Source of the DNA: Sulfolobus acidocaldarius SUSAZ
Lineage (GTDB): Archaea; Thermoproteota; Thermoprotei_A; Sulfolobales; Sulfolobaceae
Assembly: GCA_000508305.1 (NCBI GenBank)
Contig: CP006977.1
Location: 1,272,621 to 1,336,620, forward strand
Reading direction: 5' to 3'
Length of the DNA stretch: 64,000 bases
Below the pieces are notes generated by a model. That model searched no databases and had not been told where the DNA came from. It saw only the letters and a list, made by a program, of their open reading frames with translations. This document shows positions 43,961 to 52,703 of this stretch, one piece after another; positions within the stretch are counted from its first letter, which is position 1; each line of letters opens with the position of its first letter. Both the position numbers and the translations under genes were made by a program.

Positions 43961-43992
43961 TTTTTATATTACTTGAGTATAAAATTTATATG
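43961..43992 (+). promoter_or_regulatory. Promoter of the purine operon
   Basis: TTTTTATATT at 43961-43970 is a good TATA box. Its centre is about 25 bases from the purC ATG at 43990, which predicts a leaderless transcript. No ribosome binding site is present at the usual spacing. Confidence 0.5.
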
Positions 43993-44697
43993 GAACCTAA
44001 GAGGGTCGCAGAGGGAAAAACAAAAATAGTTTATGAATTTGATCCTGAGCATTATCTTCTTAGATTTAAAGATAGTATAACAGCAGGGGACGGTGCTAGA
44101 AAAGATGAACTTCCGGGTAAAGGTATTTTAAATGCTCAAACTTCAGCGCTGTTCTTCAGATTATTAGAGAAGAACGATATCAGAACTCATTACGTTGGTA
44201 TGTATGACGAAAAAACGATGATAGTTACTAAATTGAAGATGATTCCAGTAGAGGTAGTTCTAAGAAACATCGCAACTGGAAGCATAGTAAAGAGATTACC
44301 TATAAAAGAGGGAGAGGTATTTGATCCTCCAATAGTGGAATTTTTCCTTAAAGACGATTTAAGGCATGACCCATTATTAAATTACTCTCACTTACAGTAC
44401 TTCAACTTGTTAACCAGGAAGGAAGCTGAAATAGTCGAGGAAGTGATAGTTAAGGTAAATGTTGTAATGAAAAACTTCCTTAAAGAGAGGGGTTTGGTCT
44501 TATACGATTTGAAGCTCGAGTTCGGAAAAGATAAAGATAACAATTTGATTGTTGGAGACGAGATAACGCTTGATTCAATGAGAGTTAGAGATGAAAAAAC
44601 AAACAAAATTTTAGATAAAGACTTGTACAGAAAAGGCGAGTCATTAGAGGTAGTAAAGAAAGCATACGAAGACTTCTTTAACTTGATATCAAGGTGA
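43990..44697 (+). CDS. purC: SAICAR synthetase
   Basis: PurC condenses CAIR with aspartate using ATP. The 235-residue protein has the start [39 protein letters not shown]-like [12 protein letters not shown] and LYDLKLEFG, with the Asp-rich [12 protein letters not shown]. It leads the operon purC-S-Q-L-F-F2-D-M. The stop overlaps the purS start. Confidence 0.96.
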
Positions 44698-44972
44698 TGA
44701 AGACGTTATATAACGTTGAGCTCATAATAATCAGTAAGGATGGTATAAGAGATCCTGAAGGAGAGACAATTCAACGTTATGTTGTACAGAAATCCACAAA
44801 TAAGGTAAGAGAAACTAGGGCTGGTAAGTATTTACTTTTCAGAATAGAAAGTAATTCTTCTGAAGAAGCTCAAGAGACAGTGAAGAGAATAGCTGAGGAA
44901 ATGAGACTATTCAACCCTATTGTTCATAAGATCATTATTAGGGTGTCAAGGAGTGAGGGTAGCGGTAATTAA
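44697..44972 (+). CDS. purS: FGAM synthase subunit PurS
   Basis: PurS is the small scaffold that joins PurL and PurQ in the three-protein phosphoribosylformylglycinamidine synthase. The 91-residue protein shows VELIIISKDGIRDPEGETIQRY and a C-terminal strand with ESNSSEEAQETVKRIAEEM. The ATG at 44697 shares a base with the purC stop; a GTG at 44694 is possible. The C-terminal 20 bases overlap purQ. Confidence 0.93.
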   Translation: MKTLYNVELIIISKDGIRDPEGETIQRYVVQKSTNKVRETRAGKYLLFRIESNSSEEAQETVKRIAEEMRLFNPIVHKIIIRVSRSEGSGN

Positions 44973-45633
44973 GTTCCCAGGAACCACTTGCGAGATTGAT
45001 GTCTACAAAGCTCTTAAAGAGGTAGGGGTAGAAAGCGAAATAGTTAGACATAAGGACTTTGATCCTGATAACTTTAAGGCAGTAATTATCCCAGGTGGAT
45101 TCAGCTTCGGAGATTATCTGAGAGCTGGGAGTATTGCTGCTAGTACAGAGACCATGAAAAAAATAAAAGAGATGGCAGATGCTGGAAAAGTAGTTATCGG
45201 AATCTGTAATGGTTTTCAGATCTTGGTGGAAAGTGGGATACTTCAGGGTGCATTATTACCTAACCTGAATTTACGTTTCTTGAGCAAATGGGTTTATCTG
45301 AAGGTAAATAGGTTTGATACTGTTCTCACCAGAGGTTTAACTAAAACTGTAGTTAGAGTACCCATAGCTCACGCTGAAGGGAGATATTACCATAATGACT
45401 CTGAGATGGCAAAAAGAATTGCAGTTTTTCTCTACTCTGATGAGAATGGTAACGTTGATGATAAAAATAATCCTAATGGCTCTATCTATAACATTGCAGG
45501 TATAGCCAATGAGAGTGGTAATGTTATAGGTATGATGCCTCATCCTGAAAGAGCCTCTTTCAATTTAACGTCTCCAGACGGGGAGACAGATGGTTTATTA
45601 CTATTAAGGGGGTTGAAAAGAATTGAGGCTTAG
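44953..45633 (+). CDS. purQ: FGAM synthase glutaminase subunit PurQ
   Basis: PurQ supplies ammonia to PurL. The 226-residue class I amidotransferase has VAVIKFPGTTCEIDVYKAL, GGFSFGDYLRAGSIA, the nucleophile loop GICNGFQILVE, and the His/Glu pair in GMMPHPERA. I choose GTG 44953 because GGGTG lies seven bases upstream and the family starts here; the frame is open 11 codons earlier inside purS. The stop overlaps purL by 11 bases. Confidence 0.95.
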   Translation: MRVAVIKFPGTTCEIDVYKALKEVGVESEIVRHKDFDPDNFKAVIIPGGFSFGDYLRAGSIAASTETMKKIKEMADAGKVVIGICNGFQILVESGILQGALLPNLNLRFLSKWVYLKVNRFDTVLTRGLTKTVVRVPIAHAEGRYYHNDSEMAKRIAVFLYSDENGNVDDKNNPNGSIYNIAGIANESGNVIGMMPHPERASFNLTSPDGETDGLLLLRGLKRIEA

Positions 45634-47755
45634 TTTATCCTCTCAGGAAATGGAGCTAGTGAGGAAGTTTTTAGGAAGGGAGCCGAAAGAGGAGGAATGG
45701 TTAGTTGTAGATGCCCTATGGTCAGAGCATTGTTCATATAAATCATCAAAAATATTCTTGAGGAGTTTTCCCAGTGAGGGCGAAAGAGTAATAATGGGTA
45801 TAGAGGATTGGCAAGACGCAGGGGCGTTAGACGTAGGGGACGGATGGGCTGTAGTCCTCAAACTGGAGAGCCATAATCATCCATCTGCCATTGATCCTTT
45901 TAACGGAGCAGCAACAGGAATTGGAGGAATAATACGAGATATAATCAGTAAAGGCGCTAGACCTATAGCCTTACTTGATATGATTAGGGTTGGTAATCTT
46001 AATAATTCAAGGAATAGATGGTTGTTAAAGAACATAATAGCAGGTATAGGATTTTATGGAAATAGTATAGGTGTTCCTGTAGTTGCAGGTGAACTAGCAT
46101 TTGACGAAACGTATAATGATAATCCATTAGTTGATGTAGCTGGACTAGGTGTTGTAAAGAAGGATAAGATCGTACCAAGTGTAGTAAAAGAGGCAGGGCT
46201 AAAGATTGTTCTTGTTGGTTTAACTGGTCTGGATGGACTTGGAGGTGCATCCTTTGCATCTAGGAAACTTAGCGGAGAAGATGAGATAGGTGCGGTTCAG
46301 ATTGCAGATCCCTTCGCTGGGAAAATAGTTTTAGATGTAACTATTCAAATCGCTGATAAGGTAGAGGCAATCAAGGACTTAGGTGGTGGTGGACTAGTTG
46401 TCGGAATCACTGAAATGGCTAACGGATTAGGTGTAGAGGTCGAACTGGACAAGATTCCCTTGCGTGTCAAGGATTTAACACCTGGAGAAATTCTAGTCTC
46501 CGAAACCCAGGAGAGAATGGTATTTGCTGTAAAACCAGAGAGAGTAAAGGAGGTTTGTGAAGCATTTGAGTATTATGAATATCCTTGCGCAGTTATTGGA
46601 GAGTTCACTAATGATACTAGTATTAGATTCTTATACAAGGGAAAAGAGGTTGTGAATTTACCCTCAAGTTTACTCTTGAATCCACCTAGATATAAGTGGG
46701 GTGTTAAAAAAACTAAGTACTCAATATACCATGAAAAACCTAATATAAACCTAGAAGTAGCTGTGAAGGAGATTCTATCTTATCCAGACCTTGTAAGCAA
46801 ATTCTGGGCATATTCCCAGTTTGATTATGAGGTAGGAACATCTACAGTGCTCAAACCCGGTGAGGCTGATGCAGGCTTAATATCTTTACCAAATGGTAAG
46901 CTATTAGCAATCAAGGGTGATGCTAACCCTGATTTATGCGCAGAAGATTCCTATGAGTGTGGTAGATATATTGTAGCAGAGGCATATAGAAATCTAGCCA
47001 CAGTGGGCGCTAAGGGGATAGGTGTTGTAGATCATTTACAGTTCGGAGATCCTAAGAAACCTGAAGTATACTATCAGTTTGTTGAGGCAGTAAGGGGTAT
47101 AGCAGAGGCTTCAAAGTATTTCGGTACCCCTATAGTTGGGGGTAAGGTATCATTTTACAACGAAAATAGGGAGGGGAAACCAATTAAGCCAACACCCTTG
47201 GTTGTCATGGCTGGATTAGTACAAGACAAGTTTTTGAGACCTAAGATTACTGAGGGCGCGTCAATAATTATGATTGGATTTACCAGGGAGGAGATGAGAG
47301 GTTCCTTATTAGGTAAAATATTTGGGAATTATGGAGACGTGCCTAAGACTAGGTTAAATGAGGAATTTCTGTCAAGCGAACTTGTGATTAAGGCAATAAA
47401 TGATGGGAAAATAATTTTCGCAAAAGACATTAGTAAAGGTGGTTTAGTAGGAGCGTTACTACCTATACTTGTAAGGGGATTTGGCGTCTCAATTGATACT
47501 AATTTAATACCTTCAGATAGCGATGACGTAATTTCCAAGCTATTTTCTGAGAATGGAGGAAGATTCATTGTTTTAAGTGAAAGAGAGGATGATATTAATT
47601 GGCTCGAAAGCCAAAGTAGAGGAATTTATGTATCTAAAATAGGAGAAGTCACTAGAGAACAATACGTAATGTGGCTAAGGGAAGGAAAGAAAATAGACCT
47701 GACTAGAGAAGTAAATAATTATTATAGATATCTAGAAGAGGTGACAAGTGATTAG
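45623..47755 (+). CDS. purL: FGAM synthase subunit PurL (small form)
   Basis: PurL is the ATP-dependent synthase that uses ammonia from PurQ. The 710-residue protein is the small form without a fused glutaminase. Segments: ALWSEHCSYKSSKIFL with the catalytic His, KLESHNHPSAIDPFNGAATGIGGI, LGGGGLVVGITEMANG, and the second half GVVDHLQFGDPKKPE and GTPIVGGKVSFYNE. The start is TTG 45623. It overlaps purF by eight bases. Confidence 0.97.
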   Translation: MRLSLSSQEMELVRKFLGREPKEEEWLVVDALWSEHCSYKSSKIFLRSFPSEGERVIMGIEDWQDAGALDVGDGWAVVLKLESHNHPSAIDPFNGAATGIGGIIRDIISKGARPIALLDMIRVGNLNNSRNRWLLKNIIAGIGFYGNSIGVPVVAGELAFDETYNDNPLVDVAGLGVVKKDKIVPSVVKEAGLKIVLVGLTGLDGLGGASFASRKLSGEDEIGAVQIADPFAGKIVLDVTIQIADKVEAIKDLGGGGLVVGITEMANGLGVEVELDKIPLRVKDLTPGEILVSETQERMVFAVKPERVKEVCEAFEYYEYPCAVIGEFTNDTSIRFLYKGKEVVNLPSSLLLNPPRYKWGVKKTKYSIYHEKPNINLEVAVKEILSYPDLVSKFWAYSQFDYEVGTSTVLKPGEADAGLISLPNGKLLAIKGDANPDLCAEDSYECGRYIVAEAYRNLATVGAKGIGVVDHLQFGDPKKPEVYYQFVEAVRGIAEASKYFGTPIVGGKVSFYNENREGKPIKPTPLVVMAGLVQDKFLRPKITEGASIIMIGFTREEMRGSLLGKIFGNYGDVPKTRLNEEFLSSELVIKAINDGKIIFAKDISKGGLVGALLPILVRGFGVSIDTNLIPSDSDDVISKLFSENGGRFIVLSEREDDINWLESQSRGIYVSKIGEVTREQYVMWLREGKKIDLTREVNNYYRYLEEVTSD

Positions 47756-49082
47756 CAAGATAAAGGAACATTGCGGAATAGTTGGAATTCATAATGTTCC
47801 CAATGCACCAAGAATTGTATATGAGACTTTGAAGTTTCTCCAACATAGAGGTCAGGAATCGGCTGGAATAACATTCCTCGATAAGGATCGACTTAGCACT
47901 GTTAAGGGACTAGGACTTGTGGAAGATGCATTAGACCCAATAATTCTTAAATCATCGAACTTCTCTATTGGTCACGTAAGATACTCAACTACAGGACGGG
48001 GAGTAATAGATGAAGCTCAACCTCTAAGCGACGGCAAAATCGCTCTAGCGTTTAATGGAACTATTCCAAATTATATTAATTATAACGTAAGAATTGATAC
48101 TGAATTCATTTATGAAGTACTGAAAAACCAAGAAGATATAAGACAAGGGATAAGAAAATTAGTAGACTTAGCAGATGGTGGTTATTCCTTAGTTGTCTTA
48201 ACCAATAAGGGTGAACTAATCGGTTTAAGAGATCCTAAAGGCTTTAGACCTTTGGTTTTAGGGAAATTAGGCTCAGGCTATATTATAGCGTCTGAAGATT
48301 CTGCAATAAGACAGTTGGGAGGAATAGTGGTTAGAGATGTTAAACCCGGTGAGATGATATACATCAAGAATGGTTCAATTGAAAGCGAGATTGTAGCTAG
48401 GGACGAAGTTCATTTTTGTTCCTTTGAGTATATTTACTTCTCTAGGGCTGACTCAATAATAGACGGAGTTTCAGTCTATAGGGCTAGAGTGAGGTTAGGT
48501 GAGATATTAGCTGAGAACCATTCAGTAAAAGTAGATATTGTGGTTCCTGTACCGGAGTCCTCAGTACCAATTGCCCTAGGATTTTCGAGAAAATCCGGGA
48601 TTCCTCTCGAATATGGATTAGTTAGAACATCAGTATCTAAGAGATCTTTTATAATGCCTTCCCAGGATAAGAGGGAAAGTATTGTTGAGGAGAAATTCGG
48701 AGTTGTTGGTGAGGTAGTAAGAAACAAGAAAATTGTATTAATAGATGATTCTATAGTTAGAGGTACAACAATGAAAAAATTAGTGAAACTAATTAGAGAA
48801 AATGGTGCAAGTGAGGTTCATGTGAGAATTGGTTCACCTATGATCAAGTATCCCTGCTATATGGGTATAGACTTTCCGAACAAGAAGGAATTAATCGCAA
48901 ATGATAAAAACGAGATGGAGATTGCAAAGTCCATTGGAGCAGATTCTGTTGAATACCTCTCTATAGATGAGATGATTAAGGCAATTGGTAGACAAGATTT
49001 ATGTCACGCATGTTTTTCAGGTATATATCCTCTTAAACATTCGTATGATTTTTCTAAACTCAGTGTAAGTATGAAAGGGTGA
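47748..49082 (+). CDS. purF: Glutamine PRPP amidotransferase (active copy)
   Basis: PurF makes phosphoribosylamine, the first step of purine synthesis. The 444-residue protein has an N-terminal Ntn-hydrolase domain with the catalytic Cys9 (KEHCGIVGI; the first eight residues would be removed), the family segments FLQHRGQESAGI and SIGHVRYSTTG, and a C-terminal PRPP-binding site KIVLIDDSIVRGTTMK. Four further cysteines (for example in DLCHACFSG) could hold an FeS cluster as in many homologues. The start is GTG 47748. A divergent copy follows directly. Confidence 0.96.
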   Translation: MISKIKEHCGIVGIHNVPNAPRIVYETLKFLQHRGQESAGITFLDKDRLSTVKGLGLVEDALDPIILKSSNFSIGHVRYSTTGRGVIDEAQPLSDGKIALAFNGTIPNYINYNVRIDTEFIYEVLKNQEDIRQGIRKLVDLADGGYSLVVLTNKGELIGLRDPKGFRPLVLGKLGSGYIIASEDSAIRQLGGIVVRDVKPGEMIYIKNGSIESEIVARDEVHFCSFEYIYFSRADSIIDGVSVYRARVRLGEILAENHSVKVDIVVPVPESSVPIALGFSRKSGIPLEYGLVRTSVSKRSFIMPSQDKRESIVEEKFGVVGEVVRNKKIVLIDDSIVRGTTMKKLVKLIRENGASEVHVRIGSPMIKYPCYMGIDFPNKKELIANDKNEMEIAKSIGADSVEYLSIDEMIKAIGRQDLCHACFSGIYPLKHSYDFSKLSVSMKG

Positions 49083-49087
49083 GTGTG

Positions 49088-50302
49088 ATGGCAGGTATAC
49101 TAGGTGTATATGCATTTGATAAAATCTGGAACATAAGTAAATTTTTGTACTATGGTATAATAGGCTTACAACATAGAGGCTATTCAAGAAGTGGTATCTC
49201 AACTTTAAGTGATAAAGGATTTTTTACTATCTCAGGAGACTCAGCACCTGAAGACTTAGAGCTTCCAGAGATTCAGGGATGGGCTGGCGTCGCATATACA
49301 GGATTAGAAAAGAAGTATCCTTATACTACAGATTATGGTGTTTTAGTGATAGATGGAGTAGTGAAGACTGATCTCAATGAACTCAGTAAAAAGCTATACA
49401 AGGATCCTGAGACTGCCCTAATGGAAGCTGACGGCGTCTTTTCTTTAGTCTTTCTATCAAAAGACGGAAGAATGATCGGTTATAGGGACGAACTTGGAGT
49501 AAAGCCACTGGAAATAGGCGGTTTCGGATTTGATCTAGCCATATTGTCTTCTGAAACACCAGGTATTTCAGTGATTGGTGGTGAGTTGAAAAGGGAAATA
49601 AAGCCAGGAGAGTTAGTTTATATAGACTCATATTCTGTGTCCTACAAGAGACTTAAGGAATTATCGTCCTCTAGATACTGCTCCATTGATATAATTTATC
49701 AGTCAAGGATAGACAGTTACGTTTTTGATGGTAATATCTACGATATAAGGGTTAGGATAGGTGAACAGCTAGCTGAAGAGAGGAAAATTGAAGGAGATGT
49801 AGTAATAGGAGTCCCAGACACTGCAATACCATACGCAATAGGCTATTCCCATAAATCCGGAATACCATTCTCTTTAGGCTTCACCAGGACAGGCAGTCCT
49901 ATAAGGACGATGTTAGCCTCGGATGATTTCCTCAAGGTTATTGGTGTTCAATTAAAGCTTAATCCCATAAAATCTGCTGTTAAGGGAAAAAGGGTAATAT
50001 TAATTGATGATTCTATGGTAACTGGGAGAACATTAAAGAACACCATCTTTAACTTAAGAGTATTAGGAGCCAAGGAAGTACATGTGCTAATTGGCAGTCC
50101 TAAGCTAATTGCCAAATGTCCCTATGGTATGCAAGTTCCTGAAGAAAAGGAGCTCATAGCAGCCAATCTTCCAGATAACGAAATAACTAAAGTTATGGGT
50201 GCAGACTCAATATATTGGCTAAGTCTTGAGGGACTTTACAGAGTAGTTGGTCATCGAAATTTATGCGTTGGTTGCATGACTAACCTCTTTCCTAGATGGT
50301 GA
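49088..50302 (+). CDS. PurF paralogue lacking the catalytic cysteine
   Basis: The 404-residue protein aligns along its length with the preceding PurF: LYYGIIGLQHRGYSRSGI, VYIDSYSV, GVPDTAIPYAIGYSHKSGIP and the PRPP loop RVILIDDSMVTGRTLK. The N-terminus is MAGILGVYAF, with Ala where PurF has the nucleophile Cys, so glutaminase activity is not expected. The YST/G loop of PurF is also altered (WAGVAYTG). The start ATG 49088 sits five bases after GGTGA. It may be a structural partner, an ammonia-using transferase or a regulator of PurF. It retains cysteines near the C-terminus (NLCVGC), like PurF. Confidence 0.88.
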   Translation: MAGILGVYAFDKIWNISKFLYYGIIGLQHRGYSRSGISTLSDKGFFTISGDSAPEDLELPEIQGWAGVAYTGLEKKYPYTTDYGVLVIDGVVKTDLNELSKKLYKDPETALMEADGVFSLVFLSKDGRMIGYRDELGVKPLEIGGFGFDLAILSSETPGISVIGGELKREIKPGELVYIDSYSVSYKRLKELSSSRYCSIDIIYQSRIDSYVFDGNIYDIRVRIGEQLAEERKIEGDVVIGVPDTAIPYAIGYSHKSGIPFSLGFTRTGSPIRTMLASDDFLKVIGVQLKLNPIKSAVKGKRVILIDDSMVTGRTLKNTIFNLRVLGAKEVHVLIGSPKLIAKCPYGMQVPEEKELIAANLPDNEITKVMGADSIYWLSLEGLYRVVGHRNLCVGCMTNLFPRW

Positions 50303-50307
50303 TGAGC

Positions 50308-51744
50308 ATGAAGAAAGTTCTCTTAATAGGTGAAGGAGCTAGAGAAAATGTATTAGCAGAAGCACTAGGAAGTTCAGAAGTGGGATATAGAGTCTTCGCT
50401 TTTTCAAGCTACAAAAATCCAGGAATAAATGAGATTGTTATAAAGACTAATGGTGAGTACTTAATAGGAAATATAAATTCGGTGGAGGAAGTAAGGAGAG
50501 CTATTAAACAAGTCAATCCAGATTTTGGTGTAATTGGTCCAGAGGAGCCTCTATTCCATGGTATAGCAGATGAGTTCAGAAGAGAAGGTATCCCAGTAGT
50601 TGGACCCAATGCAGATGGTGCAATGATCGAGAAATCTAAGGTTTGGATGAGAGAGTTAATGTGGAAATATGAAATTCCAGGAAGGCTCAGATTCAGATAT
50701 TTTAATAACATGCAGGAAGCTGCTAAATTTATTCTCGAATATGGCGGCTCAGTTGCAGTTAAACCTGCAGAACAAGTAGGTGGTAGAGGAGTTAAAGTGG
50801 TTGCAGATTTACAGGCTTATTTAAGTGAGGAAAAAAGAAGTGCTTTAAGTAAAGGTGTCGAGAACGTAGCTAGCTTGGTAAAGGGAGATGTGAAAATTCT
50901 CATCGAGGAGAAAGTAGATGGACCAGAATATACTCTTCACGTTCTAACCGATGGTAAAAGCTATTTGCCTCTGCCTTTAGCTCAAGATTACAAGAACGCA
51001 TATGAGGACGGAATAGGTCCGGAGACCGGTGGTATGGGGTCTATATCTGGACCAGACTATTTATTGCCGTTTATAAATAGGGAAGAATTTGATAAATCTT
51101 TTGAGATAGTTAGAAAAACTGCAGACGCAATTGCAAAGGAAGTGAATCAGGCTTATGTTGGTATACTGTCTGGTCAAATGATGTTAACTGCCATATGGGG
51201 ACCCACGATTATAGAGTATTATTCAAGATTAGGGGATCCTGAGACCTCTGCCATAATTCCTAGAATTACTAGTGATTTCGGAAGAACCTTAGAGTTGCTT
51301 GCAACCTCTCACTTGAATAAAGCTAAAATAGAAATTAATGAGAAGTCATCAATTGTTAAAGCCGTAGCACCTTTAGGTTATCCATTAGATAAGAATATGG
51401 CAACTGGGCATACAATTTGGTTAGATTTACCTAGAATGAGGGAGATAGGTTGTAATGTATATTTCGGTTCAATATCACAGGAAGGAGGAAAACTTATAAC
51501 AAAAGGTTCAAGAGCTCTTGAAATCACAGTAGTCGATGACTATGATAAGGCTGTAGAGAAACTGGATAGGTGTTTCTCCTTGGTTTCTTCGGATACAAAG
51601 TTGATATTTAGACACGATATTGGAAGGACTATCTCTCAGCAAGCGGAAAAAGCCGAAATAGTCAGATTTTCGTATAAGTCCCGTGAATCTAAGGGGATTT
51701 TGGGCGTAAGTGCAGATTGGTCACCAAATGGTGGTCTATGGTGA
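50308..51744 (+). CDS. purD: Phosphoribosylamine-glycine ligase
   Basis: PurD joins phosphoribosylamine and glycine using ATP. The 478-residue ATP-grasp protein is longer than bacterial PurD (about 425). It has KVLLIGEGARENVLAEAL, VIGPEEPLFHGIADEF, AVKPAEQVGGRGVKVV, and EYYSRLGDPETSAI, close to the family ARFGDPETQ. I choose ATG 50308, five bases after GGTGA (50298-50302). The extra length is mostly in the C-terminal third. It overlaps purM by seven bases. Confidence 0.94.
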   Translation: MKKVLLIGEGARENVLAEALGSSEVGYRVFAFSSYKNPGINEIVIKTNGEYLIGNINSVEEVRRAIKQVNPDFGVIGPEEPLFHGIADEFRREGIPVVGPNADGAMIEKSKVWMRELMWKYEIPGRLRFRYFNNMQEAAKFILEYGGSVAVKPAEQVGGRGVKVVADLQAYLSEEKRSALSKGVENVASLVKGDVKILIEEKVDGPEYTLHVLTDGKSYLPLPLAQDYKNAYEDGIGPETGGMGSISGPDYLLPFINREEFDKSFEIVRKTADAIAKEVNQAYVGILSGQMMLTAIWGPTIIEYYSRLGDPETSAIIPRITSDFGRTLELLATSHLNKAKIEINEKSSIVKAVAPLGYPLDKNMATGHTIWLDLPRMREIGCNVYFGSISQEGGKLITKGSRALEITVVDDYDKAVEKLDRCFSLVSSDTKLIFRHDIGRTISQQAEKAEIVRFSYKSRESKGILGVSADWSPNGGLW

Positions 51745-52703
51745 GTGAATACAGTAAATCTGGCGTAAATTTGGATAAACTTAAGCAGTACCATAATTTC
51801 ATAGCTAATTATTTGGGTTCAACCAAGCTTGAAGTGGGAATAGGACATTATGCTGGCGTGATAAAGTTTGATAATAAGTATTTGGCAATGCATGTGGATG
51901 GGGTAGGTACTAAGACTCTTTTAGCGCTAAAGACAGGTATCATTGAGCCCACGGGGGTTGACTGCATTGCTATGAACGTTAATGATATAGTTTGTGTGGG
52001 TGCAAGACCGATAGCTGTTGTTGATTATTTAGCTTTAGAAGGGGAAATGGATGACGTGATACAGAAAGTTATGAAGGGTTTGAAAGCAGGTGCTGAGGAG
52101 GCAGAGGTTAGTATTATAGGAGGTGAAACCGCAATAATGCCTGGTGTAATCAAAGGATATGATCTATCATGCTCTGCTATTGGAATTGCCGATACACTGA
52201 AAACTGGGGAGGATGTGAGACCTGGAGATGTGATTTTAGGCTTAGCTAGTAATGGGGTTCACTCTAACGGTTACTCTCTAATAAGGAAGTTGATAGATGA
52301 AGGAAAGTTAAGATTAGACGAATGGGCTGAAGAGTTAATGAAACCCACAAAAATCTATGTTAAATCAGTGTTGTCTGTTAAGGATAAAATTAAGGCTGTT
52401 GCCCATATAACTGGTGGTTCTTTTTCGAAGTTAAGAAGGATAACCAAGTTTGGAATATCTCTTAAAATGCCTGAGCCTTTGGATATATTTAAGACAATAG
52501 AGAGTGCGGGCGTTAGTCATGAGGAAATGTATAAGGTGTTCAATATGGGAGTTGGAATGGTGATTTTTGTGGATAAAAAATTGAAAGACGATGTTATTGA
52601 TATCTTAGCAAAGAGAAATGACGTGGTTTACGAATTGGGAATAGTAACAGAAGGCAACGGTATAAAGATTTCAACCTACAAAAATTCTATTGTATATTTG
52701 TAA
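51738..52703 (+). CDS. purM: AIR synthetase
   Basis: PurM closes the imidazole ring of FGAM to give AIR. The 321-residue protein has GVNLDKLKQYHNFI, MHVDGVGTKTLLAL, GVDCIAMNVNDIVCVGARP, IIGGETAIMPG and AHITGGSFSKLRRI. The start is ATG 51738, within the end of purD; a GTG three bases later is possible. It closes the operon, which lacks purN/T, purE/K, purB and purH genes. Confidence 0.96.
   Translation: MVSEYSKSGVNLDKLKQYHNFIANYLGSTKLEVGIGHYAGVIKFDNKYLAMHVDGVGTKTLLALKTGIIEPTGVDCIAMNVNDIVCVGARPIAVVDYLALEGEMDDVIQKVMKGLKAGAEEAEVSIIGGETAIMPGVIKGYDLSCSAIGIADTLKTGEDVRPGDVILGLASNGVHSNGYSLIRKLIDEGKLRLDEWAEELMKPTKIYVKSVLSVKDKIKAVAHITGGSFSKLRRITKFGISLKMPEPLDIFKTIESAGVSHEEMYKVFNMGVGMVIFVDKKLKDDVIDILAKRNDVVYELGIVTEGNGIKISTYKNSIVYL

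Follow-up and report, generated by a model that had tools for sequence, protein, structure and literature searches.

Two PurF-like proteins are encoded in a row in the purine cluster of Sulfolobus acidocaldarius SUSAZ, and the second carries alanine at the position of the catalytic cysteine, which raises the question of what such a protein contributes beside a complete PurF. The genome is a single contig of 2.06 Mb, from which a stretch of 64,000 nucleotides, here called the window, was analyzed; coordinates are positions within the window, and all genes discussed lie on its forward strand. The cluster purC-purS-purQ-purL-purF-purF'-purD-purM (43990 to 52703) is in close, overlapping order. 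The upstream gene, purF (47748 to 49082), encodes an amidophosphoribosyltransferase with an 8-residue leader followed by the nucleophile Cys9 (MISKIKEHC) and a complete glutaminase site. The downstream gene, purF' (49088 to 50302), encodes a protein of 404 amino acids that begins MAGILG and is 34% identical to PurF, and the initial annotation of a tandem paralogue with alanine in place of the catalytic cysteine (Ala2; codon at 49091 to 49093) was confirmed.

An incorrectly assigned start codon could in principle hide a cysteine. Translation of purF' likely starts at the ATG at 49088, because a Shine-Dalgarno-like GGTGA (49078 to 49082), read directly from the sequence, sits 5 nucleotides ahead of it; an in-frame GTG at 49079 is a less likely start. 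Moreover, several relatives (L035, L036, L044, and L222) have an in-frame stop immediately 5' of M-A-G, such that an upstream start is ruled out in these genomes, and no cysteine codon is found near the start in the window. The idea of a hidden cysteine was therefore rejected. The GGTGA also overlaps the TGA stop codon of purF, in agreement with the earlier suggestion that expression of the two genes is coupled, and PurF is taken to be the co-translated partner.

A class of cysteine-less PurF proteins was already known. In a genomic survey, Brown, Hoopes, White and Sarisky found in 2011 that PurF of the Crenarchaeota falls into two clusters, one with the cysteine and one without, and named the latter PurF'; many PurF' proteins had alanine or valine for cysteine, clustering of the genes was noted, and an ammonia-dependent enzyme was suggested as a possibility in need of a test (PMC3261824). 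The window gene is the same thing: a second PurF-like gene, one per genome, that lies near purF and other purine genes (purL-purF-purF'-purD-purM), belongs to a separate clade, and lacks the N-terminal cysteine (Ala2). Methanocorpusculum labreanum likewise has a second PurF-like protein without the cysteine, Mlab_0150, but it has serine instead and is described as a recent duplicate of that organism's own PurF, outside the ancient PurF' clade (PMC3261824). We found no experiments on PurF' following the survey of Brown et al. in the open literature. Brown et al. considered the Crenarchaeota and the cysteine only, whereas the present analysis extends to other TACK archaea, Asgard archaea, Theionarchaea, and Methanofastidiosia and to the whole glutamine site. 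New here are the count of losses over the entire glutamine site against an invariant PRPP site, the wider spread of PurF', and the Asgard intermediates described below.

Residues of the window PurF' were compared by alignment with those of characterized enzymes. Simulations based on the crystal structure of E. coli PurF indicate that Arg73, Thr76, and Gly102 hold a glutamine analogue, that Lys349, Arg342, and Thr374 hold a PRPP analogue, and that Tyr74 and Ile335 form a wall of the ammonia channel (PMC7953260). In the window PurF', Gly72-Leu73 (49301 to 49306) replaces the glutamine-binding Arg73 and the channel Tyr74, Thr76 is deleted, and Asp89-Gly90 (49352 to 49357) replaces Asn101-Gly102 of the glutaminase site. 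Thus, of the residues that define PurF, Cys1, Arg73, and Asn101 are Ala, Gly, and Asp, respectively. The loss of the cysteine stands as originally noted, but its reading as a single lost residue does not, since Arg73, Tyr74, Thr76, and Asn101 are also gone. By contrast, the PRPP site was said to be intact, and it is: the PRPP-binding motif VILIDDSMVTGRTL (49991 to 50032; Asp307, Asp308, Ser309, Gly313, and Thr315) is present, and the flexible loop of the phosphoribosyltransferase (PRTase) domain, RTMLASDDFLKVIGVQLKLN (49904 to 49963), has Arg273, Lys283, and Lys290 at the positions of E. coli Arg332, Arg342, and Lys349, giving 9 of 9 PRPP-site residues when Arg and Lys are counted alike at position 342. 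Within the same loop, Met275 replaces Phe334. A degenerate PRTase loop in the neighboring PurF was also considered and dropped, as that protein has the Lys349 equivalent and lacks none of the PRPP residues scored.

Profile searches and structure prediction gave a similar picture. No Pfam glutaminase domain was matched in PurF', and the type I PRTase domain PF00156 was matched at 28.3 bits (cutoff, 26.3). The NCBIfam purF equivalog TIGR01134 (cutoff, 350 bits) scored PurF' at 204 bits, with the profile matched from position 130 only, and the neighboring PurF at 408 bits. An AlphaFold2 model of the window PurF', built with 54 PurF' sequences, had a mean pLDDT of 90.6 and a pTM of 0.89, the weakest part being the flexible loop region (56-63), and the PurF model was equally confident (90.3). 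The best PDB match of the PurF' model was the B. subtilis glutamine PRPP amidotransferase (GPATase) 1ao0, with a TM score of 0.88 and 30% identity, and the whole two-domain fold is predicted to be kept. Like the Bacillus-type Fe-S GPATases (1ao0 and 1gph), PurF' has the GPATase fold, the PRTase domain, the flexible loop, and the four Fe-S cluster cysteines (Cys198, Cys344, Cys393, and Cys396; codons at 49679, 50117, 50264, and 50273, spanning 49679 to 50275). Unlike them, it lacks the nucleophile, the glutamine-binding Arg, the channel Tyr, and the loop Phe334, and its glutaminase domain is shortened. We conclude that PurF' is without the nucleophile and the glutamine-binding residues and, as judged from alignment and model, still has the GPATase fold, the cluster cysteines, and every residue scored in the PRPP site.

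To follow loss and retention across the family, PurF and PurF' genes were gathered from genomes of the order Sulfolobales, of other Thermoproteota, and of other archaea and were aligned with B. subtilis and E. coli PurF. The sets comprised 150 distinct PurF' proteins, 137 PurF proteins from loci or genomes with PurF' (paired), and 34 from genomes without it (unpaired); residues carry E. coli numbers, pairing status came from the genome search, and a few alignment columns were gapped. All eight glutaminase residues were present in none of 148 PurF' sequences (maximum, 5), in 131 of 133 paired PurF proteins, and in 34/34 unpaired ones. The two paired exceptions are most likely explained by a frame broken in the draft (L166) and by masking of part of the sequence (L048). 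L166 is from Vulcanisaeta sp. JCM 14467, where the reading frame of PurF is in two pieces and that of PurF' is short, which could be draft-sequence error or decay. Individually, PurF' retained Cys1 in 7/148, Arg73 in 0/148, Tyr74 in 0/143, Asn101 in 10/141, and Phe334 in 0/150. Arg332 and Lys349 were retained in 150/150, Asp366, Asp367, and Gly372 in 149/149, and the Fe-S cysteines in 146 to 149 sequences. The PRPP site is held more strictly in PurF' than in PurF, because all nine PRPP residues were present in 146/148 PurF' proteins versus 90/133 paired and 15/34 unpaired PurF proteins. The initial description of a glutaminase-dead copy with an intact PRPP site is well supported, and more strongly than the window alone could show.

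That PurF has a looser PRPP site does not indicate lost activity, because unpaired PurF shows the same: changes at Lys349 and Asp366 occur there too. Strict mutual decay, with loss of PRTase activity from paired PurF, was therefore not supported. In PurF proteins of the Methanomethylicia type (e.g., L208, L210, and L225 to L230), the PRPP motif has Glu in place of its first Asp (EDSRGT), and the adjoining PurF' keeps Asp-Asp. Other positions also stood out in PurF'. The Phe334 position, which we take to be a wall of the ammonia channel, was Ala in 110/150 and Met in 36/150 and never Phe; the Pro300 position was Gly in 98% of 73 sequences; and the loop positions of B. subtilis Lys305 and Arg307, presumably part of the nucleotide-inhibitor site, were not conserved. 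The dead N-terminal domain is not simply drifting, because it has PurF'-specific, near-invariant Phe10, Trp14, and Phe148 (window numbering).

Purifying selection on PurF' is strong. In a comparison of the window genome with its nearest relative, dN/dS was 0.052 for PurF' and 0.062 for PurF, and the PurF' frame was conserved in 16/16 Sulfolobaceae genomes searched. Mean Kimura distances over 119 distinct gene pairs were 0.86 (PurF') and 0.91 (PurF) for the PRTase domain and 1.55 and 1.32, respectively, for the N-terminal domain, a descriptive comparison in which row pairs are not independent.

In a tree rooted on E. coli PurF, PurF' formed one clade separate from PurF (SH-aLRT, 100); B. subtilis PurF was placed as sister of that clade, a placement that we treat as unreliable. 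Named records place PurF' beyond the Crenarchaeota in Bathyarchaeota, Nezhaarchaeota, Methanomethylicota, Brockarchaeota, and Nitrososphaeria, in the Asgard Jord-, Njord-, Sigyn-, Frey-, and Baldrarchaeota, and in Theionarchaea and Methanofastidiosia. Among 300 Thermoproteota genomes, counted by hand, about 94 had both genes, about 103 had PurF only, 2 had PurF' only (at contig edges), and 101 had neither at the search threshold. PurF' was found in 13 of 99 genomes of the Jordarchaeum phylum and in 6 of 101 of the euryarchaeal Theionarchaea phylum, with PurF adjoining in all 13 and all 6. Across these three genome searches, PurF' without PurF was seen only at contig edges. PurF lay directly upstream on the same strand in 118 of the 150 distinct PurF' loci, with a median gap of 4 nucleotides; it was outside the fetched stretch in 25 and on the opposite strand in 5. 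Opposite strands, unlike the arrangement in nearly all lineages, were seen in L242 and L243 (family f20) and in L140 to L142 (family f29), and the PurF flexible loop is without the usual Lys349 in family f20 and part of f29.

The alanine could be a local loss if orthologues kept the cysteine. Within the Sulfolobaceae the residue is mostly Ala but is not uniformly kept: it is Gly in 2/16 and Thr in L162, and it is never Cys. Cysteine-keeping orthologues do exist, in seven sequences that are all Asgard (L171, L172, L183, L184, L186, L187, and L189; Jord, Sigyn, and Frey). They do not make the alanine a local loss, because all seven also lack Arg73 and Tyr74, as well as Phe334, and the four placed in the tree form the first branch of PurF'. 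The branching suggests that glutamine binding and the channel were likely lost first and the nucleophile later. We conclude, from alignment and tree, that the alanine of Sulfolobales is a derived, fixed stage.

Two further observations concern Asgard genomes. Two of the cysteine-keeping PurF' proteins, L171 and L184, exceed the TIGR01134 cutoff and would be annotated as ordinary PurF. Separately, five loci of the Jordarchaeum phylum, probably Lokiarchaeia (L282 to L286), encode another PurF-like paralogue (MGGLFGV..., about 466 to 493 amino acids) that adjoins PurF in 4/5 loci. It is without Cys1, Arg26, and Arg73, keeps Lys349 and the Fe-S cysteines, and has Glu-Asp in the PRPP motif; as it scores higher with the PurF than with the PurF' profile, it looks like an independent glutaminase-dead class.

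What might PurF' do? The initial annotation had offered a partner, a regulator, and an ammonia-dependent enzyme, and a partner role is favored because of the strict co-occurrence and the translational coupling. We give about even chances to the reading that PurF' is an old, fixed paralogue that serves PurF as a partner subunit, binds PRPP, and is probably competent for catalysis. PurF' itself would be unable to use glutamine, and the two proteins would form a mixed GPATase whose glutaminase resides in PurF alone. The phosphoribosyltransferase sites contributed by PurF' would take ammonia either from PurF or from solvent, and binding of PRPP or nucleotides at PurF' may also tune the mixed complex. 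Consistent with a partner subunit, the invariant PRPP site of PurF' and the kept glutaminase of PurF look like mirror images, the PRTase domain has diverged no more in PurF' than in PurF whereas the dead domain evolves faster, and Phe10, Trp14, and Phe148 are kept there as a retained interface would be. The gene right after purF, the joint occurrence, the low dN/dS, and the confident model with its match to 1ao0 point in the same direction. Against a partner subunit, changes at Lys349 and Asp366 are also seen in unpaired PurF and so do not demonstrate a loss of PRTase activity from the paired form, PurF alone serves many archaea (about 103 of the 300 Thermoproteota genomes), some lineages have the two genes far apart or on opposite strands, and co-occurrence would suit two separate enzymes of one pathway as well. 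A paralogue that became a complex subunit has a parallel in Pcc1/Pcc2 of archaeal KEOPS, though those proteins are unrelated and belong to another pathway (PMC9889334). A purine enzyme repurposed as a ribosome dimerization factor (PMC12605026) was set aside, as that enzyme is PurH and is irrelevant to PurF'.

One way in which PurF' could act without a complex is as a free-standing ammonia-dependent PRPP aminotransferase that converts PRPP and NH3 to phosphoribosylamine when ammonia is plentiful, as raised by Brown et al. E. coli PurF with Cys1 replaced loses glutamine but not ammonia activity (cited in PMC3261824), the PRPP site of PurF' is invariant, and the residues that would couple it to its own glutaminase, Tyr74 and Phe334, are gone. 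However, an enzyme working on its own could stand in for PurF where ammonia is abundant, and PurF' is never without PurF outside contig edges; moreover, the dead N-terminal domain is kept in all lineages with its PurF'-specific residues, and we regard this possibility as unlikely. Alternatively, PurF' could be a regulatory subunit without catalysis of its own that adjusts the activity of PurF by sensing PRPP or purine nucleotides. A full PRPP site in a protein without glutaminase and the strict pairing with PurF would suit a sensor, and human PPAT is controlled by a nonglutaminase partner that tunes the first purine enzyme, NUDT5, although NUDT5 is unrelated to PurF and is an inhibitor with bound AMP (PMC13421311). 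Invariance of Arg332 and Lys349 in 150/150 sequences seems to exceed what is required for binding alone, and the Lys305 and Arg307 positions, with their presumed inhibitor-site role, are not conserved; a purely regulatory subunit thus seems quite unlikely. Because the residues of the flexible loop are invariant, catalysis at PurF' is somewhat more probable than pure sensing.

An acceptor other than ammonia appears highly improbable. The absence of Phe at position 334, the near-universal Gly at position 300, and the fixed PRPP residues could mean a phosphoribosyltransferase whose site has opened to a larger nucleophile, but Phe334 lies in a loop next to the ammonia path, so lost coupling explains the change equally well. 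Moreover, the gene keeps a constant place in the purine cluster beside purF, and nothing points to another acceptor or to a pathway step that lacks its enzyme. Finally, loss of the catalytic cysteine and of the glutaminase signature could be read as decay of a functionless duplicate after a local loss. The chance of decay is negligible, and a pseudogene was rejected on the dN/dS of 0.052, the single ancient and fully supported clade, the complete PRPP site in 146/148 sequences, and the frame kept in 16/16 Sulfolobaceae.

A broader proposal, tentative and in our view rather unlikely, is the following: the first purine step in many archaea may be carried out by a hetero-oligomeric GPATase of divided labor, with PurF as the obligatory glutaminase and PurF', its PRPP site stricter than that of PurF, as a dedicated ammonia-accepting phosphoribosyltransferase, an arrangement that would predate diversification of the TACK archaea. 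The residue table turns a purF duplication flagged in Crenarchaeota in 2011 into sharp predictions: PurF' should not accept glutamine as a substrate, PRPP should bind to it, and it should either require PurF or work jointly with it. PurF and PurF' have been retained as a pair in a wide range of archaea. If a mixed enzyme is confirmed, it would be an uncommon solution for a pathway step under tight regulation, and one old enough to be common to TACK and some Asgard archaea.
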